A DNA stretch of 64,000 bases, from positions 6,200,001 to 6,264,000 of the forward strand of contig OX387203.1 in the NCBI GenBank assembly GCA_947561715.1, read 5' to 3'. How positions within the stretch are numbered: position 1 is the first letter of the stretch; every line of letters starts with the position of its first letter. Below, piece after piece: positions 20,901-45,800 of the stretch. The DNA comes from Ascidia mentula. Lineage: Eukaryota > Chordata > Ascidiacea > Phlebobranchia > Ascidiidae. The notes beneath the pieces are model-generated. The model saw only the letters and a list, made by a program, of their open reading frames with translations. It searched no databases and had not been told where the DNA came from. The position numbers and the translations under genes were made by a program.

Positions 20901-23900
20901 TCTTAAATAGTCCCTGTTTGAGCTGATAAGGATTTTCCTATGGTCCATTTTAGATGGAAACCATATTGGCATATACAATTATACATATAAACAAATGACA
21001 TCACCGAATTTAACTCTACACTATGCAAACCCACACAAAGGTACATCGTTGCTATAATGAAAAACTGTCATCCTTTGCATACAAGGGCTTATAAAGTACA
21101 CATGTTTCATCCTACTATTATTGCCTATTTTTGGTCATTATTACCTATGTAAGCATATTGCATCTGAATAGGGTATTTCAATACTAAATTGTTCATTTTT
21201 CTGGTGAAAAAAACAACAGAAGCTACCAGATGGTCAAAACCCATTTTGAGTTTTCAAAAATACTTATGTTGTCTTGTTTTTTTAGAAAACGATGTTGGTT
21301 GGAGGTGCCCGGGGTGTCAGAACGTTACAAAGCAAGTACCCAACACCTACTATTGTTTCTGTGGAAAAGTTCGCGACCCAGAATGGAAAAAAGGAGAAAT
21401 GCCACACTCTTGTGGTGAAAATTGCAGCAAGCAAAGAAAGGATACTCCTGGTTGTACTCACCCCTGTAACATGTAGGATTTCTATTGAACTTTGTTGTTA
21501 ACCTGATACTTATACATGTTATGTTGCTTAATTAAAAAACTTAATGCTGGTTAAATTTTTGCTGCAGTTGAAGATAAAATCCTAAAGACATTACAGTTTT
21601 GCAATCATCAATGAAATCCATTCAGCTTTAATAATCCAGAATACTTTTTACTTTGAATAGACTTTGCCATCCCGGCCCTTGTCCACAATGCCCAGCGATG
21701 GTGAACAGACAATGCCAGTGTGGTAAACTTACTTCCCGTATTCGATGCAGTCAGCAAAGCTTGCTTAAGTGTGACAAAGAGTGCAGCAAATTTAGGAACT
21801 GTGGAATACACAAGTGCTCAGAAGTTTGCCATTCTGGCAAGTGCAGTGATTGTGAAGAAACCATAACCCAAGGTGATTTCTTGTTTGTACTTGAATCTGT
21901 CTCTTCGAGCAAAGGTTCATGCCCAAAATCTGTCACAGGCATTCAATTACTGGTTAGAAGTATATGATTAGATATCCTGGCAATTGTATTTCGACATTTA
22001 ACATGTAACTTTATGGAATAGCAATTTGCAAGCTATATTTAGTGTTTATATTTCATACTTAATTGTTAGTGGACGTGGGCAAATCAAAGCACATTTTTTG
22101 CTCTGTTTTCATAATGTCACAATACCAACTTCTGTTGATGACCCAAATGCAATCAGTGTATATGACACATTATCACCTGGTGATACATTAAACAAATCTC
22201 TTGTAATCTTTTCAAAGAGATGTTTCATTTTGAGAATTGTATGTTTTTGTAGAATGTTTCTGTGGTAAGCACAGTCGTAAGGTGGTGTGCGGTTCGTATG
22301 AACATAAAGCTTCGAAAGAATTGGAAGGGAACGGTTTCTACTCCTGTGAAGAAATATGCAACAGGTGAAACAGTGCAAAAATATAACATAGAAAAGCCAA
22401 AGCTAATATGATGTTAATCATGTTAACGTTTCGAACACTAACTGCGTTCATCATTTTCTATTTCAAGTAATCAACTCTGCACCCAAGTGCAAAAATAGTA
22501 TTACTGTTTTTCGGTTAGTAAAATGTTTACGAAAAGCAAAACTTTTTGTCAACACACTGTGTTTTGGTTGTACCAACAAACACTGTACTTTTGAACAGAG
22601 TTCTTGAATGTGACAACCATCATTGTGAAGCTCTGTGTCATGAGGGAAAATGCAAAGAGTGCCCCATGCTCCCCCGTCTGGTGAAACTATGCCCATGCAC
22701 TCAAACTAGGTTGGAAAATTTAAAGAATGAAGATGGCTTACCAGTCAGTCGTAAAAGTTGTTTGGAACCTGTCCCAACTTGTGAAAAGGTAAATATTTCT
22801 GTGTTGATTGTTACCTAGTTTGGTACCCAACATATCGACGATTGACCGAATGGTACCACAAAGTGGAAATCTGTGTGCCTGCTAGTCCCAGCTAGCACAG
22901 TGCCACATCAACAGCTGCACTGATGAGACCTTACAGGTCGAAACAGTGCGTGTATACACCCTGTCTGCAGCTCTCATTGATTATTATGGCTCTTTTTCGC
23001 ATAAATATTTCTGTTTAGATTTTAGTGGTGGTGTTAAGTCATTTATACCTTTATGCAGACTTTCGACAATATTTTCTGGAATTTTGAACTTTTAATATTT
23101 AATGAAATTAATTATATATGCTCTTTGAGTTTTTTGCTTAGGTTTGTTTGTGTAGTAATGTGGTAAAATATGCTTCTGTATGCTTCATATTCAATGAAGA
23201 CTGTTTCAAAAGCTTATTTTCACAAGTCGTGAATAAATTTCCATGTTTTATGCAGATATGTGGCAAACCCCTGGAATGTGGTGGGGATGAAATCCATATT
23301 TGCACTTTGACTTGCCATGTTGGGAGTTGTCCACCATGTACAGACCAACATAGTAACATCAAATGCAGGTAAGAGACCAAAAGATGCATACCAGATGCTG
23401 CAGAAGCTCTTCTGTAAAAGTGCATGGTAACTGCACCCCCTTGGTTATATAACCACAATATGAAAATCTGTGCTTTGCACACGCTGTAAAAACTACATTA
23501 CATTCCATTGATCTTTTCCTCAGGTGTGGAAAATCAGAGAAGGATGTGGCGTGTGGCGAATACGTAACCATGGAAACGTACGTGTGCGACCGTCGGTGCA
23601 ACAAGAAGAGGAAGTGTGGACGTCATAAGTGTGGTCAGACATGCTGCACTGTAAGTAATAATAACAAGACTTGCGCGTGGTCAATTTTGCGTCAGTAGAT
23701 TTTAAACCAAAATACTTGGCCTTAATGATTTCTATGTTGAAAATGTGTAAGATTTCTATTTTTCCGCAGGAGTCGGAACATGTGTGCATGCAGATCTGTG
23801 GTCGTAAGCTGTCATGTGGTATTCACCGATGCGATGAGCCATGTCACCGTGGCACGTGTCACGCATGCTTCAACGTTAGCTTTGACGAGTTGCGTTGTTA

Positions 23901-26900
23901 CTGCGGCGACAAGGTCACCTACCCGCCCATACCATGTGGCACAAAGGCGCCTGAATGTAGCAACGAGTGTACCAGAATGCATCCGTGCACGCACCCGAGT
24001 AAGTCGCGCGAAAAGTAGGCGTGTTGGTTACCAGAAAAGTGTTTCCAAAAAAAATATATAACTTATAAATAAAAAGTATGTAAAAATAAGGATTCCAGTA
24101 CTTCTCAAAAATTCTCGTTTTCCGTTTTCATAATATGTTACTTCAGGTTTTTTCATATTTTGCAATTAAATTTTATGACCAGCTAAACATTTTTGCAACG
24201 AAAACAGAAACCCCATGTTGTCACCACAAACAATGGTCCACGGTTCTAAACTCTTTCCGATGTTGGAACTAAAACAATGATCTAAACTACCTTAAAGCTC
24301 GTATGTGGACATTTCAGTTATAATGCCAACCTATTGTAATGTTAGTGATAGGTGCATTGTTTTAGACAGACTGTCTTAAAAAAATTTTTTTGCACGAGCT
24401 TTCGTGAGCTTAATCTCGCATTATCAGGTACTGCCCGAGACTGACACAGCACATTGAAGCGATTGTAATGTGTTTGTGACTTTCAGTTGTAAAGTTCTTT
24501 AAGGCTTAAATTAGTTATGTGTTGTACCAGTATCATTATCCTGAGGAAGCCTTGCTGGATAACAGGCGAAACGTCGGTCAATAAAGTTACGTTTTTATTG
24601 TGCCAGAAGATCAGACTAATAAATTAAATTAGTTATGTTACTATTATTAACAACGTATGCTTTTACAGTTCGTCACACTTGTCACACCGAGGAATTCTGC
24701 CCACCGTGCGTAGAGTTGGTGAAGAAACCGTGTAATTGTGGCCGAGTAATTCGTGGCAACATCATGTGTCATGTTGACAACGTTTCATGTGGCAAACCAT
24801 GCGAGAAAGTTTTGTCTTGCGGGCATAAATGCTCCAAACCGTGTCATAAGTAAGAAAGCAATTGTTTGTTTTTTTGACTGGTGTTCTAATGCTACGATTG
24901 CGTAAACATTGCGAAGTTTAATGTATGATTAATGTTTTTGTTCCAGAATACTTTCGCTTGTTACTTATACAGTCGTACTAATCAGTTTACGTAAAACACA
25001 TATTTTTGCTCACAAAAAAGGCATTCAAAAGTGATTTTATGCAACAGGAAGTCGAAAACCTTATAATTTTGTTGCCAATGCTTGTGATGACGCATAACTT
25101 TTACGTCACGCCTTGTGTGTTTTGGTGACGTCAATGACGAACCGCGACGACAAACACGCGGAAATCCTACCCGGAGAATGCCGTATTTGGCTGTAAGCGT
25201 TTGAGCCAAGTTAAATCATACAAGAGTGGGATGCGTTTGTAAACCTTCGGGTGATTTATTTGTTGTTTCAAAATACTGGGGCATAAAAAAAACAATTTGT
25301 TACTTTTTGTAGGATTTTTGAATTTTTATCTGTCTGTCCAAAGCACATCATTGTTTTGTACTGTTTGAAATTTACTACAAATTAGGCACGTACTAGCTAC
25401 ATGTGCTCAATGCAAATCTCGATTCCATTAAATCTTACTTGGTTCTTGCATAAACCTTTAGTTAGTTTCCCACCTAATCAACCCGATTGTGTAAATCTTG
25501 CAGGGGTTCTTGTGGTGATGAAGGCGCAGAATGCAAACAGCCATGCAGTATTATGAGAAGTGAGTGTATCCACCCATGCGCAAACCCCTGTCATTACGGA
25601 TCGCCTTGTCCTAATGCACCGTGTTTAGCGATGGTAAGAAATTATTGGTTGACAAGTCGCAGTCGTGGGTTATGGTTAACAGTTAATGACGCCCACTTGT
25701 ATAACAATAGTTTTTAAGCAAATAATTCGGTGATATTTGGTGATATTGCCAGTGTCATAGGAAATTACCAAAAATGCCTTGAAACGTTGAGAAACCCTGT
25801 ATTAGTTCAAGTTATGATGAGAAAAAAATCTTGATCTTAAAGTACTCTTGTGTTCGTTTTTATCCTAACCTTGTCGTAAATCATGCTCGTTGCTAGGTGA
25901 CGGTGAAGTGTCCATGCGGAAGAAGAGAGGAGCAGATGGAATGCTCCTCCGGTCGTGAAAGTTACTATGGTGTAAGGAGTGCGGTAATCGCTGGAACAAG
26001 AAAGGGAGAGGGAATAGATATAGGGAATCTCCTCTTGCGTTCAGGGTCTTGGTCTACGAGGTTTGTATACGTGATAATGGACTTTTGGCACTGGACAAAC
26101 TTATGGCCTTATGCTGATACCTTTAATACATAATCCCAAGTCGTTTGCTTTACAATATTGTTTAATATGTAGCCTATATATTTCGCCTACTCACAGACAT
26201 CGTCGGTATTGCTAAAAACATTGAACATAGCAGTTTAATACCAACATATACTGACATATAATTGCTCACGTTTTATTATGCTGTGTAGCAAAAACTGAGT
26301 GCACACCAGTGGGTATAGTTTCTAAATTTAAACTCGGAATGCCAAGACAAGTCGACTCACACAATTTTTGTACAGAGCTCTTCCTTGCAATGAGGAATGC
26401 AGCGTCTACGAGAGAAACCGGAGATTGGCTGCTGCACTGAATGTGAAAGACCCGGACTTCAGTTCGGATACCAAACAACAATATTCTGACTTTCTTAAGT
26501 CCATGGCAAAGTATGTTCACTTATTAGTATTTGTAATGTAGATCTTGTCATTGTTGATTTAATCACCCGGGGCTGTTTTGGGATTATTTTGCGCGAGAAG
26601 CAAATGTATTTATTGAGGAAAAGAGCAAATGCAAATTTAAACATAATAATACGAGAAGCTGTATTACGTCAAAATTGCAGTGTATAAATTGCTACTTTTA
26701 AAAACACTTTAACGACACATTGCGTTAAGAACGGTGGAAGTAGCACGGCCAAAACGTTTGTTACAATAAATTCTGCTACAATAGTATGAATTATTTTGTT
26801 TCTGTGGCGTACCGTCTGTTTTTGTGACATATAAAATGCATGACATGGCATTTGTAACAGGAACGACGGGGCGTTTGTCCAAACATTGGAGAAAGATCTG

Positions 26901-28118
26901 ACGAATCTTATTGATCACGTTGATTGGATGGGCTCCCCTAAGAAATCGCATTCCTTTCCCAGCATGAGAAGAGATAAACGACAGGTTTGTTTTTGAAGTG
27001 TTTGGTTTCAGTGTTGCATGTGTTCTGTAATAACACGTTATTGGCCTAACTTGATTGCTCACGAAAGCTTGTATATCACGGTCTTTCTTCAATAGTGCCG
27101 ATATACACGAAAAGAGCAATTTATCCGCGTTGTATATGCCTACTTGTAACGCCCCATACACTTTATGACCGTGTTTATTATTCCTCTGCTAAGTAACTGT
27201 AAAAAAATTAATTCCTAAAATTAAACGCCACGGACAATTAAAGCTTGAAACCAAAGAAACACACGTTCGACTCTATATACACCAGGCTGTACACGAGATG
27301 GCAGAGGCTTTCGGCTGCAAATCGGAAAGCAGAGATGAAGAACCCAATCGTAACGTTGTTGTCACAGCAACTAAAGGCGTGAGTAAGTGTCCCAACCCGT
27401 TGTTGAGCAAGCTTGTTCTTGAGAAAGTCGTCGAAGCTGCGAAACCTTTCCCTTCCACCAAGCCTACCCCTTCCAAAGGGTGAGATTCATTGGTATTGCC
27501 GTGTAACGTTCTGCACCTGATGTGCACTTTTTACATATAGTGGCGCAAAATTTCACCGACTAAACGCCGCTTTTGAATACAGACTTACACTGTGTTAAGG
27601 TTTCTTGAATTCAATTGACTTGCTGTCATGGAGCCATTTTGCAACGGAAAATTTTGCATGAACCACGGTGATGGTTCAAAGGCATTTTTGCTGAAAAACT
27701 GTTACTTTTGGTCGCAACAGCAAACCCAATCTAATGCTTGTTTATCAACAGTCGACTCTTGAGCTCCATGAAACTCGTCTCATTTAAATCCGAGGAATCA
27801 TCACGTGACCAAGTGCCGAGACGCGCTCCTCCGCCAACTCGAAAAATCCAGGAAAAAAACATCGGATTTTCCTACAAACCCCCTTCCGTGCGCTCATCTC
27901 CAAATCCTTTACCACTTTCAACTCGTTTCGATGTCCTGTCTGTATCATCTTCCCATCACCCTCAACCGGTTTCAACCAGTTCAAACCTGTCACCGTCCGC
28001 CAAGGCGTTTGTCCGTAGTAACCAAAGAGATCCGGTTTCAACCACTCCAAGTCAGCCCCAAACTTCTGGTAGTAACAAACAAGAATCGGTAATTGACTAT
28101 TTTGACATGACCGAATGA
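17952..28118 (+). CDS. NFX1: Transcriptional repressor NF-X1
   Basis: Complete 23-exon model, 1138 residues: 17952-18029, 18251-18476, 19183-19309, 19681-19804, 19989-20049, 20139-20194, 20254-20305, 20411-20476, 20685-20846, 21286-21472, 21661-21872, 22253-22364, 22599-22788, 23256-23368, 23524-23650, 23770-23998, 24669-24849, 25504-25633, 25897-26060, 26376-26510, 26861-26984, 27286-27479, 27752-28118. Order of parts: a low-complexity N-terminus; a RING finger split over two exons ([42 protein letters not shown]); a long series of Cys/His NF-X1 fingers ([49 protein letters not shown]); an R3H domain ([23 protein letters not shown]); and the vertebrate-like terminus VIDYFDMTE. In vertebrates NFX1 binds X-box DNA, acts as an E3 ligase and regulates hTERT and MHC class II. 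The start is the first ATG with a conserved-length short exon 1. Confidence 0.93.
18517..18983. mobile_element. hAT-like nonautonomous element, 467 bp
   Basis: The left end CATAGGCGTTGATTT and the inverted right end (CATAGGCATCGATTT on the opposite strand) are near-identical terminal inverted repeats. The element is flanked by perfect 8-bp direct repeats TGTTTGTA at 18509-18516 and 18984-18991. Inside it, GGGGTGAC-type motifs repeat in both orientations near the left end. It sits in NFX1 intron 2 and has no ORF. Confidence 0.7.
22390..22456. repeat. Truncated copy of the 44.3-kb inverted-repeat element
   Basis: Matches the left end of the element at 44261: GAAAAGCCAAAGCTAA followed by AACGTTTCGAACACTAACTG and CGTTCATCAT. 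Lies in an NFX1 intron. Confidence 0.55.
24541..24629 (+). repeat. Interspersed repeat with CGAAACGTCGG motif
   Basis: Shares GAGGAAGCCTTG, AACAGGCGAAACGTCGGT and AATAAAGTTACGTTTTTATT with positions 331-413, and more distantly with 62712-62800. The same strand and end structure suggest the 3' tail of a retroposon family. Lies in an NFX1 intron. Confidence 0.55.
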
Positions 28119-29903
28119 GGCTGTACTGTACAAAAACACATAAAATTGCAAACAGGATTAGTTGCTTGTAAAAACCTGCTTGTTCTGAACTGCAACACCA
28201 TTCCCACTTTATTGCCTTGTGTGTTTCAACTGTGTGGAAGTGATTCTTAATACATAGAGTAATTGTACCTGGATATCTAAATTGTCGTGTGAGATTTTGG
28301 GAAATAAAGGAATGTAATCACAATGTTTGTGTTGTTACGATGGCAGAATCTGTGGATTTTGAAAGTGCAACTTGCCAAGGACCTCTGCAGGAATTTTTTG
28401 GTGGTGTAAACCATTTTAATAAGTCCATGCATTAAACACTGTGTGTGTATTTTCTAATGTTGGATAAGTAACGATTTGTATTGTAGGATGTCGAGGATTA
28501 TCACATTTTCCATGCCTATGTTGCAAAGACCAAATAGTAGTAGCCTACTGTAATTCCAATTTCCACTTTTGGGTAAAATGTGTAGATTTGGCCTAACCAA
28601 TGCAAAGCCGTTTGGTAAAACAATGTGCCTTGAGGCATACATAGGAACGTCAGCCAGTCGACGCGTTTGACGCGCGCCTGTTTGGAGAAAATACCTCTGG
28701 TATGTCGACTGCACTGGATGCCATCTCTTGATTGTCGTCACTTCAATACGTAAGTAATTCCGCCCCAACTCAAGTTTGCTAAATTAACGTGGTTTTCGGC
28801 ATTTTAATGCCTAGGTTTTACGCATAAACGGTGGAATTTTTACAAATACAATTGAATGTTGTATTATCTAACACAAAGAGGAATGAAAAATAAGCATTTG
28901 TGTTTTTCGTTTAAAGCTCACGAAATCCAATTAAAAATGAATACACAGCATGATGAGCCATGTAATTAGTATAATTGTAGTTCTGGTATTGATTTTCACT
29001 GTAAATATATTTTAAACAAACGTTAAATCAATGGATTGACCCTGTTACAAAGAGTGGTTACCAGGTATCCTTACATCACTGTCTTGTTCATTTACGTCAG
29101 CCATATTGCGTAATATGGGCGCGTCTGCTTCGAGACTACAGTTTGATGGCGTATGAATATCTTTGTAACACTCCGCAGAGAGTAATAATCAAGTTTATTC
29201 GGGTAGATTTGTTTTCCAGACTATTGTTGTATCTAAGTTTGTGAAAAGAATCACTAATTAATAGTTTAATTTCATGGAATACAACGTTTTTGTGGATATT
29301 GAGCCGTACTAGCGAACGTTTACTTACCGTGAAGACCCTTAGCATCTTTCTTGTTTTTGTCCGTGGTGACGCGTTTTGTGTCATTTGACGTGTTGACTAC
29401 GTAGCAGGAGAGTGTCCAGTCGCGAAGCTGCATTTTGATCACGACAAAACTACGTAAGTACAATAACAAAACACAAACCACGTTGCCTAGTTCTCGTGTG
29501 TTACGACTACTTAGCGTTTGTTAGGTGGCGGTTAATGACTTATCTTTGATAGTAACTTGTTGTAGTGGTAATAATCTGTTGGTTGAGGCGTTAATTTCGT
29601 TAAATTTCGTTCGCTGTGTGAATTAATAGCGACTTGGGGAATGTTTTTGCTACACAAGTGTAAAGTCTGTTTTCGGAAGCCTTGATGCTCCAACAACTTA
29701 CTATAATGGATTTTGGTATGAAATATTAGTAGATAAAGTAGATTTTTTCATTTTGTTTACACTTTTGTCAACAATTATTACAAATCTTGCTAATTTAATC
29801 AAACCAGGCCAAAGTTGTCAATATCTAAAGAAACTTATATACAACTCCTCCGTTTTTTTTTCATGAAAACTTAGTTTGTACAAATGTTGTTTTACTATTA
29901 CAG
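28119..29903. other. NFX1 3' end and CREB upstream region
   Basis: AATAAA at 28303-28308 should end NFX1. Two strong donor-like sites, GTAAGT after 28750 and GTAAGTA after 29453, suggest alternative noncoding first exons of CREB spliced to the acceptor at 29901-29903. CRE-like sites lie at 29092-29099 and 29386-29393. Confidence 0.45.
29092..29118. promoter_or_regulatory. CRE-like site and bZIP-type palindrome upstream of CREB
   Basis: TTACGTCA (29092-29099) is a CRE variant. It is followed at once by CCATATTGCGTAATATGG (29101-29118), a 7-bp inverted repeat around GCGT whose core ATTGCGTAAT mixes C/EBP and PAR half-sites. Position upstream of a likely noncoding first exon suggests bZIP autoregulation (inference). 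Confidence 0.4.
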
Positions 29904-29916
29904 GTTTAATGATATT

Positions 29917-32900
29917 ATGGATGGAATGGAGAACTCCAATTCCAATGAAGACGGATCCAATACCGCTGGAACAGCACAAATTCAGATACAAGTGGTATGC
30001 AGCCTGTACTTTATTCTATAAACACTAAAATGTTTTTGTTATTCCTTACACATATTTGTGTGGGTAATTTAAAGTTTTTAATTGCCTGTTTTTTTTTTAA
30101 CTAGTCTAGTTCTGTTTGTTGAAAGCCCTGTAGGATAATTGTTTTATGTTTGTCAAATTGATTTTGTATGGTGGGTCTTCAAATCCACTATCATTTTTTT
30201 TGTAACTTTAACAAGATGTGTTTCCTCAAGTATATGTAATTTTTGTTAATTGCTATTTGATATTTACACACCTGTCGCTCAGATTGGGGATGCCTTCTGC
30301 ACACTCGATGCATCATTACCAATTTGTTTGTTTCGATACAACTAATAATAGTTGTTATTTAGGCATGATGTTTAAATTGTTGCAACAAAGCTTGGGTGCC
30401 ACTTTGGTCAAGGTAGAAATTCACAAACAATTTGGCTCTATTTGTGATGATAACTTTTGCAAGTTGTGTGAAAGATTGTTGGGAGAATGTGTGGAATACA
30501 CAGGATGACGAAAAATCCATAATTGTGCAATGTTTTAGGGAACGTTCCATAATTGTGACAAAAATTTGTTTTGTTATGCAAGTTATATTTGATTATTTTG
30601 TTCTTGAAGGTGGTGTAATTGTTTCTTTACCTGTATTTTATTCCGTATTGTTGACTTTTTTGCAAGCAGTATTATATTTTGCTTGCAGAAAATTTTACAT
30701 GAAATTTTCTCCAAAACAAAAAATTAATTTGCAGACAGTTTGTTGAATATAATTTTATATATTGGTAAAGCACGCCGTTTGGGGTATATATATATATAAT
30801 CAAAGAAATTTGTTTAAATGGAATTTGTGTTTATATGAAGCGATCTACTTTGATAAATGTGACATGCAATTTAGACAGCGATTAATAGTCTTTTTCAAAA
30901 AATTAAAAATATAAAAAAATGCAGATAAAAAATGAAAGTTTTTTTTCATTGTTTCTATTTGAAACCATAACAAATTTGTATACACTCACACTAACAATAC
31001 AAACAATTTTGTTGTTCATTGTTTGTCCCCGACACTTTCTATACGAAGCTAGCAACTTTAATTTGTTTCCAACCCCTGTATTGTTTACACTAAATCATGA
31101 ACAATTGCCTGTTCTAGCTCCCAGCATCCGGTCGTAGCCGTTAACCACCGCTGGCACATTCAAATAGTGCCACACTGTGCATAGCGCGTGTTAGCTACAC
31201 AGGGGAAATACTTCCTTCCTTAATCTCACCATGTATCACTGGCTACTATGACACCTGCACAGACGGTACTGGCCGGTGTCACAATGTTTTAATTTGGCGT
31301 GGCGCATGCTGCTTGACTTGAGTGGGCGACAGTTGTATCAATAAAGGCCTTGTGTTGATAGACAAGTTGTAGTCACAATCAGGTAGACCAGTTGAACGAA
31401 TGAAATCCAGTTGTAATTTCCTGTTAGTGCTCTACTGTAACCGCTGGTCAGGAGTCTTTCATTTCGGATTATGCCCTACTTGTGATTGTGGATTTACTGT
31501 TAATGGATTTAAACTCATTTATGTTGAATGCAGTTTTTGTCGTTTTGGGGTCAGGGCGTTATGGATTGTATGTAGTGAGTTTAACGCTTTCTCTGGGAAG
31601 TGGTTTAACTTTAAGCCGCACAAATGATGAGCATGCTCCCCCATATTGAAGAATGGGTATGTTGTAGTAAATAGGAACAAAAGCTGCACAAGTCAAGTTC
31701 GATTAAGTTTAAAATAAGGTTTTACCTATCAAGCAATTGGGGAATAAATTGTTGTTACTCTCCTTGATGCTAACTATGACATTTCAAGCACTTAACATGG
31801 TGCTCCTGCAGACTGTATTCACAAGGAATTAAGTTTTCTTATAGGTACTGCACCAGTTATAGTTAAATTAAATTGTTTTTTTTATTTCAGTCAGGATCAG
31901 GGGGTGAAACACAGATGGTGACATTGCCCCTGTCTATGGCCAGTGCCATTAGTTCACAGGGTCAGAGCGTCATCACAGCCAACCAACAATCTGTCATACA
32001 ACCACCATTATTCCAGGTATACAGGAGCATAAATACAGCTTTTTAAAGTTCTTTGGGCCTCCGAAACAATTTTTTGATTGTTCTTTTAAAGATATTGTTT
32101 CATGGGCATAATTTACATCACCTTTTTCATTTTAACAATAAATTCTGCATTACTATTCTGCAAACATTTACTTATTGGTTTTATGACAAAAACTCTAGTT
32201 TATATTAATATTACATTATTTTTGTGAAGGATTCTGCGAAGAGGAGGGAATTGTTGTCACGGAGACCTTCATACAGGTAAAAAAATTATGATCTAGGCTG
32301 ATACATTTACATCACTGAGTAGGTTAATTTATGTCAGATTGTGTGTTTTGGGGATTATGTGTTTTTTAGCCAACTGATGTCACATCCTGTGGCACTGTCT
32401 CGAAAGATGGCCTTTTTTGTTTTGTCAGTTATTATCTGTTTTGTCAGTCATAAGCTTGTTTTGTTGTTTTGAAATGGAGAACACAAGATAGCATTCGATG
32501 ATGTATGCTCACCCTGATTATTACACAGGCTATGACCAAAATTTGTCATACGACTGGTTAGTATACAATATAATTATAGTTGTTTGTCCCTGAGGCAAGT
32601 TCAGGGATGTTTTAGTTGCAGTGAAGAGTCAAGTGCAAGTAGACATAAAACATTAGTTCTATTTTTTAAGGAAAATATTAAACGAGCTCTCGGGACAGCC
32701 AGACGAAAACCAGAGAATAAAAGATGAACCTGGCGGTGGGAGTAAATCATCTGAAAGCTCAGAATCTGATTCTGGGAGCCAAGTCATTACCTCCATGCAA
32801 GCACCAACCATTGCTTACCAGACGGGCAGTGGCACAGGTAGATATGATGTCTTGTAAAATTTTTTGGGAAAAACTCACTATATTTTTGCTTGCTCTTTAA

Positions 32901-35900
32901 AAGAATAAGCAAAATTTTAACATCCTAAGAATGAATATTTGGGTATGTTAAACATGTAATTTGCATCGAGTCTTAAAATTGTACATTTTGTATAAACTAA
33001 GTTTATACAAAATAAACTAATTGAACCGTAACCAGTTAAATAACCAGTTAAATTTAAAAATTCACTTATTTGCTGTACACACAAGAAGGTACAAGCATTA
33101 TTTTAGTGATTCGTGTTTGTACATATGTTAACGATCTATAAAATAGACTAAACTTACATGGCCTGATAAGTGTTGTGTAGTTGTTTCATTAGCTTATATT
33201 GGGGTCACATACTTTATAAGGTTAGGTCTGTTTTTATAGTAGGCGCTGAGTGGTTGTATGCCCTGTGTGTTTTTGTTTGCGTATAAACCCACCACTGCTC
33301 TGCCGGAAACTGCTAGCAGGCTCCAGCCTATCAGCTTCCTGTCGATAGTCGCAAATGAAAACATGTCTCTTGTTGCATAAATCATCACAAATGCCTGATA
33401 CTGTTGTCGTGTGTACATAATGTCATGTGATGTAAGTTTATGAACAAATGCGTATACTTGTTATTGTATTAATATTTCTAATTCTAAATTTGTGCTTATT
33501 ATTTGTGTGAACCAAACTGGACATTTTAATGTAGGATGTATATGTAGCAAATTGAAACCATTTTCCATGCACAAAACCTTTCTTATTATTGGCATGGAAA
33601 TTCCGATTCCAAGTACTTTTGTTTAAAATAGCCATTTGTCTGTTCGATATAGAAAAGTAACTAATCTCGAAAACAAATATGCAAAAAAACAAATAATTTT
33701 TTTTGGGCAAAGTCTGATTCCTTTCTAGCAATCACACCACAGTGTGTCCATATATAAGTAAATTAAGTGTGAAAAAAAGCAAAAACTTTTTTTCAGTCAC
33801 TGTCCAGCAATCCCCTCAGACCATTCACGTTGCTGCTGCAGGTTTAAACCACGCTGACCAAAACTCTGCCACCTCTGTAGCGGGCCTGCAGACTTTCTCC
33901 ATGGCCAACGCGCTTGCCCAGGGTCACACCATCGTCCAAGGTGACACTACAGCCGGTGGAAACATGTGGTTGCCAGGCAACCATGTTGTGGTCCAAGGTA
34001 GGCTTGCTTTGAATTGTTATCAAGAAATATATATTGAATATAATAAAAACGCTATGCTTGCACTAGCTTCTATGGTCTTGATTTAGAAATACCCATAACA
34101 TTTAAGGAAACACATTTTTAAAAAAAAACATTACAGAAGTATTGTTTTGGCCACTTTTAAAAGCTTGCTGAAGCCATTGTGCAACAAGCATTTACATATT
34201 GGTGTACACTTGAACATAACATCTGTGTCAATTTCACATTGAATTGACTGGTCCATGTAAATATATCTAAATATAGTGGCAGTTGCCACCATGTAACAGT
34301 GATATTTGATGTTGTGTTTAAACTTTTGCCTTTGTTTAGGAGACACGCAAATGTACCAAATTCGAACGCCCACGTCAACCACATCACTTCCAAGTGTTGT
34401 GATGAGTGGAACGACCATGCAGTCGCCACAACAAATGGCTGAGGAAGCATCTCGAAAGCGAGAACTCCGCCTCATGAAAAATAGGTCAGTATCCATGATT
34501 CATTCCAAGCTAATTCATGGCAATGTTAACAGTGTTGCTGATGATTATTGTTGCATAGTGTATGTGAACAACAAGTGCACGAGTTATGTTTAAAACTTGC
34601 ATTTGCTTTTATCTTTCCAAAAAGGCTGCTTCTGTCCCTATTTTTTTGGCCTAGAGCTGTGGCCCACATCACAGTAACAGAAAAAAAAATGCATTCATGT
34701 TTAAATGACAAGGTCATAATACTAGTTTATGGCCTTATGATAAAAAAATACAAGAGCTAAGATCACCAAATATAAAGGACCTGTGCAGTGGGGGCAATCC
34801 TGCCTTGCTATGCGAAAGCATGGTAATACATCCGCACATTTAAACAGTGATAATTTCTTGCAATAAGGCAAAAAACGATTATGGCTGCAGCGATAACGCC
34901 ACAATGGCATTGGTACCACCTTAAGTGAGTGTGTGTGTGAGATTTGGAATGTGCAATGACAATGAACTGAGCAGAACCAGAGAATGTATGTGCACACCTT
35001 AACTGACATCCACATGCCTGTCTGCATGGTGCATGAAGTTTGTTTTTTTTTGTAAAAAACAAGACCTTATTTTTGCAAGTGTTCGCTAATTATTGTTTCC
35101 TCTTTTTTTCTGGTTCTGCTCTGCTCATCAACCCATGCACACATCTCGTTAATTGCTCGGACATTTGGATATGATGGCCACGGTGAAATCGTCTTCGCTT
35201 CCGACAACTCAAATGTGGACCTCCAAATTTTTTGTTTGGTGATCGTATCATCATTTACAATTTTATGTTTTTGTGTTTTGTCACAACTCTGGGCATGTTG
35301 TTTTCATTTTCACATGGGGTTTCTAAACTAACAGGGAGGCCGCAAGGGATTGTAGGCGCAAAAAGAAAGAGTATATTAAGTGCTTGGAGCACAGAGTCCA
35401 TGTGTTGGAAAGCCAAAATAAAGCGCTGATTGATGAACTTAAACAACTAAAGGAAATGTATTGTAGAGACGAGATGCACTAACGGTTAGAAACAAGTCTG
35501 CTGTTCATAATTATATATCAGTATACTATTAATACAAATACGTTGAACGAAAATAGTGTGGAACAGTAATTACGACAATCAATTAAGATGAACGAGCGAT
35601 TATTTTGGATATGTGAGTCATAATGCTTCATGTTTAAAATGTTTTCTTCAAAATATTTCCTATCAAAATCCTTCTGTGTTTTACCAAGCCAATGTTGTAT
35701 TGGTAAACATAGGGTAATCACTGTTTAATTGCCTACTTTGCAACACTTTAAACCTTTCAAACTATACTTTAATTACACAATTCAGAAACATATCAAATCT
35801 AAACTTACAATATTTTTTGCTTATTTCCAGGGAGGCGGCTAAAGAATGTCGGCGACGGAAAAAGGAATATGTGAAGTGCCTGGAGACCCGCGTGGCCGTG

Positions 35901-35978
35901 CTTGAAAATCAAAACAAGCAGCTCATTGACGAGCTAAAAACCCTAAAGGAACTATACGTGCACAAGCAAGTGGACTGA
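29917..35978 (+). CDS. CREB: CREB/CREM/ATF1 transcription factor with two alternative bZIP exons
   Basis: Exons 29917-29994, 31891-32016, 32230-32276, 32671-32837, 33797-33997, 34340-34484, then either 35335-35482 (TAA) or 35831-35978 (TGA). Each version gives 303 residues. The kinase-inducible domain is complete, with the PKA site in KRRELLSRRPSYRKILNEL, the serine falling at an exon border. A Gln-rich activation region follows, then RKRELRLMKNR, the shared start of the basic region. Both terminal exons are 148 bases, enter in the same phase after the same AG-GGAG border, and encode full basic plus leucine-zipper ends: EAARDCRRKKKEYIKCLE and EAAKECRRRKKEYVKCLE. By my count 32 of 48 residues agree. 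Vertebrate CREM has the same arrangement (DBD I and II). CREB homologues bind CRE DNA as dimers and recruit CBP when phosphorylated. The only clear AATAAA is at 36328-36333, after the second exon. Confidence 0.9.
32986..33012. repeat. 27-bp perfect palindrome in CREB intron
   Basis: Arms of 13 bases (TTTTGTATAAACT and its complement) around a single A. AT-rich; could be a chance hairpin or transposon scar. Confidence 0.5.
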
Positions 35979-38496
35979 AGCCATCGGCTGTGATCTGCCA
36001 GTATGTACACTGAGTACGACACGGTCTTTCGACTCGTATTCGAGTCCGTGGCGTTGTGTCGTTACTTCCATGGCACTATTTTCTATCGAATGGTGGCGCA
36101 ATCCCTAAGCGTTGCCTTATATATTACAAAATATATATATTTATTTTAAAAGACGCGACACCGTTACCCTGATATATTATCGCACCGGTAACAGCTCCGG
36201 AATTCCATCATTCATTCTGGAAAAGCTGTAAAATAGAAGTCTTGAAAGCATGTTTTTGCGGACACAATGAACGGTACTAATGCGCCTTTACAAAAATTCC
36301 ATAAAATAACCATTGCATTAGTCTTAAAATAAAGTTATTAGTTTTCCTAAAACTCCCATAGTAACGAGAGACATTTTTTGCTACTCACGTGGTATACATA
36401 CATACTTTGTATTACATATGTCAGCGTTATGGACAATCATCGTCGCCCTCGGGTTTTCTGCTTTTTTAGGACTTTTATTTTTTTAAAAAACCCGAAACCA
36501 CGCCTTGAAGAACGTTTTAGTTCACACGTGGTTCCGTGGGAGCTGATGCGTGTCGTTTTTTCGCAAAACCATTCCCCGCAAAATCGGCCTCTAAATACTG
36601 GAACGAAACCGTTATGATTTGGGCTTAGTCCTATCGTTACCCTTTCTCAGGGCCTGACACCACATGTGGCAGCAAAACGCAGTCAAGTAAACCAGTTTTA
36701 GCTGAAAAATAACATTGTTATTTGTGGGACTTTTCAACAAATGCAGTTTGTGACGTAGGTAACCGTACCGTATTTAAGGTTGTTAAATTTTTGCACAGAG
36801 CTTTATATTTTTGGCCGAAAGCCCACAGGCACCCTTAGGCTGTCGTACGTGACTCAGTTTAAAAGCACGACCAGACTTCCCGTATGCCGTTTCTGCATCC
36901 ACAAACCAGCGCCCGAACCAAGCTTGTCCATTACTTACAGCCCTCCGTCAACTATTCGTAAAACCACAAACGACAACAGTTTTTTCGCCCATCAATGTTC
37001 CATGCAAACTTCATCTTGTGGTCTCTTCGGCCACAATTACGCCACCGCGGCTCCAAATGACTTGCACTGTCGTACAACGACTGCAGCGGCTTGTATATAC
37101 GGTTACTGTTAGTTCATATTTTACCCTGTTTACTGCCTTCGTCACGTGATAGATTTGACGTCATGCTTTTGTTTGTTTGAACAAAGTTATTCTCGTCGGT
37201 ATTTCGTTTAAAAACAGCTGCGTGGTTATCCGATGTTCTTGTTTGTTGGAGAGACGCATCGGCGTAAATATCCCTTTTTTGCATTACGTTCGTTGGTTTA
37301 AATGTTTTTTTCTCAACTTTTCCTCGTTTATTGCTTTACGAACGTTGAAATTCTACACAGAAATTTGAAAAAAAACACAAATTTGCAGCGATCGTTTTTT
37401 TTTCCGGGGCAACGCTGCCGAAACCAGCATATCAGTTTCGTGTAGCCGTCTGCTGTGAAAGTCCTGGAGCCAGGCGGAGTTGAGCAAGAGAAAAAACTGC
37501 ATCCGGTCACGACTTCTGCGCTCGGCTTGGTTAGAATTGTCGCTCCAAAGAAAATCAGAGCAGTTGCTCCAATACGAAAAACACCCTAGCATTCGGAACA
37601 GTGAAAAATCACACGACGCCCAGCAGTTTAGGTTAAATGGGTTTCGACTTGTGCTGCATTACAATGAAAACAAAATTCTGCAGAAGGTCTGGGACAGATT
37701 AAAAATATTTTGCAAGCGAGCAGATGCAGCAGCTGGAAAATACCGCTTGCCATTCGAGCGTTAATAAATCACGAACTAACTTCCGGCCTTTGTAAAAACC
37801 AACCAGCTGGTGGCGACTTTGTGCGTTCTATGTTGACTATTATTATTTGCCCGTCTATGACTGAAATACGTGAAAAATGGAGAGTACTTGTCGCACTGGT
37901 CCCAGTGCACGCGAAGGCATATTCAATTCTACAATTTCCTGCATATTTTGTTCTTCACCAATGTTGTACGTCTTAGGCAAAGTGTTACTCCGTTTATTGC
38001 AAGGATTTATTGCTTCGTCTAGGCAAGAATAATCAACAGTTAGGGACAAGAGGGATGCACGAGGAAACACAGCGTTGTTATCAGAAGGTAGATTTTACCC
38101 TTTTCGACGATTCGAAACTTTGAACTCTTAAGTGCATCAAAGACATTAAAATTGGAAGTAAAAAGCGCAAAACACACCGGCAATCTCTTCTACCATGGTT
38201 GGATTGAAAATTAAACACACCACAAAATTTGTACGGCGGCGCAAAGCCTCAAATCACAGTAATTAGCAATAGACAATAAAATAACGGCAAGAGCAGTACA
38301 ACATAAATAGGTAATTATGCAAGTTCATTTTCCGAGAGATGGTAAAAAGTAGTTACGTGATTGGCAACAACGACGATTGTAAAGCAATAAAGGTAAATCT
38401 AATCTCTGCCACAATCTAAACTACGTACTACAAAATTAAGCGTATTCAATCAGGGAATAACCCGATTGTCGTCAAATTTCCACACGTGGGTTGCAC
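35979..38496. other. Convergent intergenic region between CREB and CARF
   Basis: CREB 3' UTR with AATAAA at 36328-36333. A minus-strand AATAAA (TTTATT near 37993) may end CARF. The open frames at 36378-36617, 36780-37112 and 37480-37764 have no recognisable domain and no convincing splice context. Confidence 0.4.
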
Positions 38497-42855: not shown

Positions 42856-45800
42856 TTAATCTCCCAGGTATTCGTTTTCCACATTCGTGTCTTTGATTTG
42901 AATGCTTTCGTAAACATGCTGTAACACAAGTTGGGTCAACGTAAAGATACAGAAGATATGTAGCTGTAAACAGCTAAAAAACGAAATTATGAATGGAGGA
43001 GGGCTTTGTCGTAGAAAAATGCTTTAACCTTTGATATTTTTGTTTTCTATAGGAGAACTTGTTTGACCAAACCTGACCGAGAGTGTTTGTATTTACTGAG
43101 CTTCGCAAAAGCAAACTCACTTCTTTGTTTTTCTCTTGAACTGGTGCAAAGATAAGGTAACCGTTGGCATCTGAAAACACGCAGAAAAGTAATTTGACAA
43201 ACATTCTTGAATAATTTCTGCTACCTACCAGTTTTAATATCCACGACTTCCGTTGGTTTTTCTACTCGTTGTGGTAGGTCGATTGCCTTAATATACAAAA
43301 CACGCAAGAGGTTTTAATTACTGTCTCTATAACGCAGAATTTCAAGGTTTGATTGAAGTCTATGGGATTCAACATCAATGATTTTGTGTACTAGATGCAC
43401 AGAACACTGGATTGCTATCAGCGTTTCCGGTTAGTAGATAGAACCCAAAGACTGTTGCTTTTTCTTAATATGAAGCTTGGTAATATGTTCACGAATGCAA
43501 CAAGTACAGCGAGACTGCGCTAAGCTTCGAGATTTACGTGTAAAAAACAAAGGTATTTATTACTTGGTCCTGGTTTCTGGTTCGTCGGATTGCGGGAGAA
43601 GAAACTTGGAAAGGAAAAGGACGTTCAGCTTTCTCTGAGGTAAATATTGTTAAAGCTGGTTTGGTTTTCCAAGTTTTGGTCAGTTATGAAGACAATAACA
43701 CAACATATAGCTATAATCGGAACGTCGTCGAAACAACATACTTTTTTACACCAATAGAACAAGTTAAACCTACCACGTGAACGCTTTTTTTTGAACCGAT
43801 AGTAGAACAAGGCGGCGCCAATGAGCACCAAATTTGCAGCAACAGAGACCGCAACAGCAACTGGTATAGCGAATGATTCGTTTGCAGCAACAGTGGCAGG
43901 TTTCGCATCAAAGGTGCTGGGTTGCGGGACAACTGTAGTTGGATTTGTAGCAACAGTAGTGACGGGGTACATAGTAACGGTGGTTTGGTTTGTAGCAACG
44001 GTAGTGATGGGGTTTGTAACAACTGTTGTAGTCATTGCTATGGTAACGTGAAGTTGGAAAGAAGTTTCGTAGATGGCTGATGACACATTGATTATGTAGA
44101 TGCCGTTGTCCACGAAATTTGTCTTGAATTTGGCAAGAAAAAAAAGGTGTTAATTGTTTTTATCGGCTGAATGAAAAGTTGATGTAAAATGGGTTAAACA
44201 TTTAACACCAGTAAAAATTGCCAAACAGAATTATTAATTATGAGATGTTTTAGTTTAATTTTGAAAATGAAAGCCCAAGCTAAAATGCTGTTATTCATTA
44301 GTAAACGTTTCGAACACTAACTGCGTTCATCATCAGTACTACAATGATTGCATGCAAGAAAAGCTACGGGGTAATAAAGGACTGAGCAGGCAGAAGGGAA
44401 ACAGCAGCAGCAACAACGCGCAACAAGCCAGAGGCATGTCACGTGACAACAACATGGTGGCACAGCAGCGACGTCATCCTTAGCAATGTGTCAGCATTTT
44501 AGCTTTGGCTTTCATTTTCAAAGGTATAAACTCCAAATATTTTAGTTTAATGATTTTCAGTTTAAATTTATTTTGTCCACAAAGGAAGATTTATCTTAAT
44601 CAAGTAGTTTGCACCAACCTTTGTTAAAACGAGGGTGTGTATTTCTCCGCGAGGCAACGCGCTTGTCGTGACGTCCTTTGATGAGCTTTTTCCTACACAG
44701 TGGCAGCAGATGACAAACGTTGCGCTCAGTAGTCTACGTTCTGTTTTTTCTTACCTGGTTGGAAAAGAACAACTTTGATGGGAGCTGGGTTTGCGTAAAA
44801 TTCGATAGAACAATTCTTGACACGACTTGATGCGAAGTCGCAGGAGTTTGCACTTGCATTTGTGTAAGGAGCATCTGCATGCAACATCATTTTTACATTA
44901 CATTCATTGTCCGCGAAGACAAATATTTGTCAGAAATAGGCGATTTTATTCTTAAATCCTTCTAAATTTGCTAACTTTCTTGCTACAATTTTACCAATGG
45001 GTTTCAGAATAATTTGCTTTGCTTTTATGTTTTTACCTTCTCCTTTGAAAAGTCAGTTTTTTTAGAAGTAGTAAACTGAAACTGAAATCACACGTATATA
45101 TTTGCTAATTTTGACCTTGATCAGATTGTTTTTGCGAAAGGAATATTACTGTTCCTTTTTCCAGGTTATTTTGTTTGTTTTTCCTGCTTTTTGAAAAGCT
45201 TGAAAACAGTTGGGATGTAAGAAATGGACTCTCAGTCTTCCTTAATTTCAATTACAATGTTTTGTAACAATAGCACCCAACTTACAGGAGACGTTCAGCA
45301 ATATGGAGTGGGATCTTCCAGCATTTGGGTGGAGTAGAGTATAGTTGGATATCGCTTGACATGTCACAGTCTTACCATTTAGTTCCCTGGCCATCCTAAT
45401 AGAAATGTTTGTTTCTTTACTCTGAAACGCGAAAGACACAATTATAGGGACATTGTTTGTGTGTAATTGTTATGCAGGGGGAGCGTACGAAGACCGTATA
45501 TATTAAATGCATTTAGGTTTTGTCAGTATAGATATACCTTAAATTCTAGGTTGATGAAAATAAACGTAAAATTTACACTTAGAAAACTCAAATAATATTG
45601 CAATCAATATAACTGCCAACACCTCTCAAAATGCCCAACGCTCCAAGCTTAATGAGAAGTAAACGGGGAGAATTAAACTCCACGCTTAACGATATAGATT
45701 CGTTCACTCATCCACCTACCTCTAGAGCATTGTTGTTCACCATAAACCGCACTGACGTCACCGGGGGAAATACGTCATTGGCGTACTTGCAGAAAAATGA

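Follow-up and report, generated by a model that had tools for sequence, protein, structure and literature searches.

An ascidian CREB gene carries two complete, constrained and mutually substitutable terminal bZIP exons, A and B, as confirmed here from reading frames, domain matches and a codon-level comparison of the pair. The gene lies on the + strand of the window (the whole 64-kb stretch of DNA that was analysed) and looks complete, with six predicted upstream coding exons followed by A and B. We propose that this gene, the sole CREB-type gene found, duplicated its terminal exon and that its shared part is probably spliced to either A or B through competing acceptors, the first of which abuts an unusually long zone free of AG dinucleotides.

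Gene layout and the paired terminal exons

The features of the locus are given below in window coordinates.

29917 to 29994, + strand: predicted first coding exon (frame and splice donor; presumed start codon)
31891 to 32016, + strand: second coding exon, glutamine-containing activation region (frame and splice sites)
32230 to 32276, + strand: first KID exon, with the PKA site RRPSYR (pKID Pfam match of the translated KID exons, 62 bits; frame)
32671 to 32837, + strand: second KID exon, with KILNELS (pKID Pfam match; frame)
33797 to 33997, + strand: exon of a presumed Q2-like activation region (frame; named from its position)
34340 to 34484, + strand: common exon, ending in LRLMKN and the AG of an arginine codon (shared donor GTCAGT at 34485)
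35080 to 35332, + strand: AG-exclusion zone of 253 nt, abutting the exon A acceptor (AG scan; matches only itself in the genome)
35086 to 35090, + strand: CTAAT, the strongest candidate for a distant branch point (adenosine at 35089, lying 245 nt before the acceptor; 25 of the next 30 bases pyrimidines; putative use)
35335 to 35482, + strand: alternative terminal exon A, encoding REAARDCRRKKKEYIKCLEHRVHVLESQNKALIDELKQLKEMYCRDEMH and a stop (frame, Pfam bZIP_1, codon comparison)
35831 to 35978, + strand: alternative terminal exon B, encoding REAAKECRRRKKEYVKCLETRVAVLENQNKQLIDELKTLKELYVHKQVD and a stop (frame, Pfam bZIP_1, codon comparison; pyrimidine-rich acceptor, 14/17)
36328 to 36333, + strand: AATAAA, which probably serves B, and perhaps both forms, as poly(A) signal (hexamer scan; putative use)

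Exons A and B are each 148 nt long, are each preceded by AG, and share the donor and phase of the common exon, whose arginine codon (AG, then G) is continued by both. Each has its own stop (TAA at 35480–35482 in A, TGA at 35976–35978 in B), and joining the six predicted upstream exons to either one gives a 912-nt frame with one terminal stop, encoding 303 amino acids either way. The pKID match (PF02173) exceeds its Pfam cut-off of 25 bits, bZIP_1 (PF00170) is matched at 71.2 bits by exon A and 73.6 bits by exon B, both over the cut-off, and among solved structures (PDB) the best match of exon A is CREB1 (E 5.9e-18), alignable over 44 residues. Frames and Pfam matches thereby bear out the first-pass annotation, which had described paired 148-base terminal exons, each a complete bZIP end with its own stop.

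Across the genome searched (195.8 Mb, 79 contigs), exons A and B were the two best of 15 PF00170 matches. Of six matches to a CREB-tail query, three fall in this gene and the best of the others reaches 36% identity (E 5.5e-5); because these searches score the best candidates only, we call it the sole CREB-type gene found, not the sole one present. Among relatives sought outside this genome, on other genome contigs, none of 116 candidate stretches was confirmed. On viral contigs, a CREB1-like query gave 34 candidates and no match, and a lone match over 15 residues among 19 candidates was judged to be chance.

The assignment of the gene to a tunicate, also made in the first-pass annotation, is supported by the mitochondrial genetic code. 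The COX1 match on contig C79 has AGA or AGG at 16 codons and TGA, in frame, at five; under the ascidian code (AGR as glycine, TGA as tryptophan), AGR codons supply glycine in the motifs IGGFG (its first glycine), FGNW and GTGW, at positions that we take to be conserved, and this use of AGR for glycine marks the genome as ascidian. Glycosyl hydrolase family 6 has two matches in the genome, a presence that presumably fits a tunicate; two frames of L016 have no Pfam match, neither overlaps the family 6 match (L016, 1501–1785), and they are thus uninformative on this family. The mitochondrial contig, at 19,461 bases, may include an assembly overlap; most tunicate mitochondrial genomes are shorter, at 14–15 kb.

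Coding constraint on both exons

Exons A and B are identical at 93 of 148 nt, and their differences at codon positions 1, 2 and 3 number 17, 10 and 28. In the coding frame synonymous sites are saturated (pS 0.90) at a pN of 0.24, an excess that is absent from the other two frames (pS/pN of 0.34/0.40 and 0.21/0.42). Since synonymous sites are saturated, the duplication is old; the saturation says nothing further on its origin. Outside the two exons, homology is confined to short local matches of 30 and 14 columns.

Simulation separated constraint from drift. When A was left to drift neutrally along branches of 0.5, 1.0 or 1.5 substitutions per site, none of 1000 pairs at any of these lengths combined an open A with a pN this low. 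Shorter branches of 0.3 let 100 of 1000 pairs through, but with a mean pS of only 0.46 versus the observed 0.90. With both exons constrained (omega 0.1, 1.5 per site), mean pS was 0.88 and mean pN 0.24, near the observed values. At matching divergence the data are incompatible with neutral drift of A. The constraint is measured exon against exon within one genome, and a single comparison of this kind cannot date it, so that a recent loss of A's use is compatible with these values.

A dead or artefactual exon A, whether an assembly error or a decayed duplicate, is highly improbable on this evidence: identity at only 93 of 148 nt rules out a recent assembly duplicate, the protein is conserved while synonymous sites are saturated, and the AG-free zone described below abuts the acceptor of this very exon.

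Splice signals before exon A

In the 850-nt intron before exon A there are 33 AGs, counting that of the acceptor; the one that precedes it lies at 35078–35079. The 253-nt AG-free stretch that follows is the longest in the window: the + strand has 3251 runs, the second longest of 131 nt, and the - strand 3108, none above 179 nt. Dinucleotide shuffles of the intron gave a terminal zone this long in 0 of 5000 cases and such a zone anywhere in 1 of 5000. The composition of the zone predicts 8.9 AGs where none is observed, and does not explain their absence, because only 2 of 200000 shuffles of the zone were AG-free. As a control, 200 kb of this genome (20 stretches) was scanned on both strands: of 19759 runs, 2 were at least 253 nt long, one of them a tandem repeat and the other not visibly so; AG-free runs of such length are thus rare, about 1 in 10,000 per AG, yet not unique. 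The zone before A matched only itself in a genome search that skips very common words, and it does not look like a repeat. A control stretch (L031, 5342–5693) holds 352 bases without AG, made up by eye of tandem units of about 22 bases resembling CCACGATACTACATGTTAAATG.

The CTAAT candidate and its pyrimidine-rich continuation (25/30) stand at the far end of the zone, 245 nt before the acceptor of A. Nearer the acceptor are seven other loose branch-point motifs, each with a 30-base continuation that holds 9 to 20 pyrimidines; they include motifs 22, 28, 69, 77, 182 and 207 nt before A; those at -22 and -28 have 12/30 and 15/30 pyrimidines, counts that extend into the exon. A conventional branch point for A may therefore also be compatible with the nearer motifs. 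The acceptor of A has the fewest pyrimidines (8/17) of the gene's seven predicted acceptors, that of B the most (14/17), and the others 9–13, and the AG-free zones before the six acceptors other than that of A measure 12–43 nt.

Exon A hence has an AG-exclusion zone of at least 150 nt (253 nt here), at whose distal end a branch-point consensus precedes a pyrimidine tract, whereas the candidates near the acceptor are poor. This distant-branch-point anatomy, a point that the first-pass annotation did not raise, would be a strong signature of splice regulation. According to the available portion of Gooding et al. (PMC1431707), 165 of 67,334 human exons have AG-exclusion zones of at least 150 nt, alternative splicing is more frequent among those with at least 100 nt, and all experimental distant-branch-point exons known to those authors are alternatively spliced; by the same account, a distant branch point is estimated for no more than one-half to one-fifth of the human exons whose zones reach 100 nt. 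CREM is not named in the main text of that paper. Alpha-tropomyosin exon 3, PTB exon 11 and OGDH exons 4a/4b share a long AG-exclusion zone whose distal end bears a branch-point consensus and a pyrimidine tract, and in OGDH, where 4a and 4b are a mutually exclusive pair with distant branch points, as in tropomyosin, paired exons compete in the way proposed for A and B (PMC1431707, PMC7969005, as far as their available portions go). Those systems are vertebrate genes with internal mutually exclusive exons, whereas A and B are terminal exons of a tunicate gene with their own stops, which makes the choice one of acceptor or last exon, and the branch point here is a sequence candidate.

A proposed splice switch

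From this anatomy we infer a switch between the two ends. The shared activation and KID part would be joined to A or B, yielding two full-length CREB proteins. The acceptor of A, presumably served by an adenosine near 35089 and an AG-free scan of 253 nt to 35334, would compete with the conventional and pyrimidine-richer acceptor of B. Where B wins, A would be removed with the intron; where A wins, its stop would be read first, and the B region would either remain silent in the 3′ UTR or be lost through an earlier poly(A) site, for which AATACA at 35531 is a candidate. The A/B ratio could then be set by regulators bound inside the AG-free zone.

A scan for nine hexamers (35335–37200) found AATACA at 35531 and AATAAA at 36328, the latter being the sole AATAAA from the stop of A to 37200, with none between that stop and B; a further AATAAA, at 35417, lies inside the coding part of exon A. 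Because no AATAAA separates the stop of A from B, the A-form mRNA may carry B as silent 3′ UTR. A comparable arrangement is described in the available portion of PMC3125264, where the ICER I mRNA of CREM holds both DNA-binding domains (DBDs), with the stop after DBD I.

The same signals could be read differently, with A as a minor or regulatory (poison-like) ending that was constrained once, is now rarely used and mainly lowers B-type CREB. In keeping with this, the acceptor of A is the poorest in pyrimidines, no AATAAA follows its stop before B, and its identity to CREB1 is 40/52 compared with 44/52 for B (the ends of the CREB1 row being provisional). Against it, the frame, leucines and basic-region signature of A are intact, its pN/pS pattern is that of a coding exon, and neutral drift is incompatible at matching divergence. 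Moreover, a terminal stop without a downstream junction does not trigger junction-dependent decay, and A would escape it. We consider such a role for A unlikely and retain the competing-acceptor switch.

Differences between the two protein ends

The two ends differ at 16 of 49 residues. In our own assignment of the heptad register, 2 of 18 zipper a/d/e/g positions differ (I/V and M/L, both conservative) against 6 of 13 b/c/f positions, a modest contrast over 31 positions (Fisher p 0.043). Three conservative swaps distinguish the basic regions, the base-contacting residues, placed by the bZIP signature, are the same in A and B, and the C-terminal tails diverge. The cysteine near the end of CREB1 is kept in A (its third cysteine) and is a valine in B.

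The first-pass annotation had expected different partner or DNA choice from the two ends. We reject this as a prediction: base-contacting residues are identical and interface positions nearly unchanged, so the same dimer and CRE preference is predicted for both. The isoforms would be alike in CRE binding and dimer code and different on their outer zipper faces and C-terminal tails, and their functional differences more likely concern cofactor docking, stability or redox than the DNA target.

Relation to CREM and origin of the pair

To our knowledge, CREB-type activity in mammals is spread over three genes, of which only CREM chooses between two bZIP ends, and CREB1, ATF1 and invertebrate CREB have a single bZIP end where the ascidian gene has two. 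With the latter proteins the ascidian gene (303 aa) has in common pKID, bZIP and the RRPSYR site. CREM is one of three CREB-type genes, whereas a single one was found here. The intron position inside the basic region is presumably the same in CREM. As judged from genomic anatomy, the design is like that of CREM DBD I and DBD II, as the first-pass annotation held: two alternative C-terminal bZIP domains in tandem on one shared N-terminal part, with a stop ending the first (available portions of PMC3125264 and PMC3941242).

The parallel that the same annotation drew between the basic regions is weaker than it was stated to be. The types do split, with CREB/DBD II-like residues in the proximal exon (A) and DBD I-like ones in the distal exon (B), on presumed CREM residues; the split amounts to two K/R swaps, and the type residues K5/R10 are presumably common to B and CREM DBD I. 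The string AAKECRRRKKE, assigned to CREM DBD I by that annotation, is one that we likewise take to belong there, and neither basic-region string occurs in the literature text searched. We take DBD I to be the proximal exon of CREM, so the order of types appears reversed in the ascidian gene. The same CREM order would follow from the ICER I mRNA noted above (available portion of PMC3125264).

One reading is that the pair predates the tunicate–vertebrate split, was kept in CREM and here, and lost one exon in CREB1 and ATF1. A maximum-likelihood tree of seven sequences and 52 sites (four rows provisional, including CREM, ATF1 and fly) places B with CREM DBD I, the best of three topologies (logL -327.21, versus -328.20 for A with B), and both the type residues K5/R10 and an old duplication, as synonymous saturation implies, are in keeping with common descent. 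Yet the AU test on the same 52 sites and provisional rows keeps A with B (p 0.47, versus 0.63 for B with CREM DBD I); the third topology, which joins A to CREM DBD I, fails the AU test (0.029) but passes KH and SH. The phylogeny that had been proposed as the deciding test thus sets B nearest CREM DBD I and separates neither origin. The apparently reversed order of types further argues against common descent, as does an Asp common to A and B (LI-D-EL), at a position occupied by Glu in CREB1. We regard shared ancestry as possible, with the balance tilted against it.

We lean instead to the view that the pair arose by an old duplication within the tunicate lineage, separately from CREM: the types appear in reverse order, K/R swaps cost little, and a last intron at the same place, as we presume for CREM, eases repeated duplication of a terminal exon; the placement of B with CREM DBD I runs against this, not significantly. 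More speculative than shared ancestry as such is a version in which the choice of bZIP end was ancestral to the tunicate–vertebrate group or older and worked by a distant-branch-point switch, the genome duplications of vertebrates were followed by its loss from CREB1 and ATF1, and the ascidian gene is a living pre-duplication form; we hold this doubtful.

Should the proposed switch be real, a chordate with a single CREB-type gene and the same choice would offer a way to probe what that choice does where paralogues are absent, and to ask whether the CREM design predates vertebrates or arose twice; the AG-free zone supplies a concrete mechanism to test. No ascidian CREB exon pair appeared among the literature matches listed, no paper with CREB, Ciona, CREM and ATF1 together was found in the literature searched, and the main text of a Styela transcription-factor paper contains no word starting with CREB.

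CRE sites and the upstream neighbour

CREM has an internal cAMP-inducible promoter (ICER). The span of the ascidian gene (29917–35978) holds no full CRE, the nearest lying at 25126 and 37156. The window as a whole contains six perfect CREs (TGACGTCA), at 25126, 37156, 45753, 46200, 48078 and 53707, compared with 0.89 expected, and none of 100 shuffles reached six. Just upstream of the CREB gene, at about 23671–28118, are cysteine-rich exons that by eye resemble what we take to be an NFX1-type zinc-finger gene. Between that gene and the first CREB coding exon stand six half-CREs (TGACG/CGTCA; 28600–29460) of the 106 in the 64-kb window, and their position ahead of the gene suggests possible CREB feedback on its own promoter. 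At the perfect CREs at 45753, 46200 and 53707, a half-site starts exactly 20 bases on, and some of these sites may belong to a repeat.
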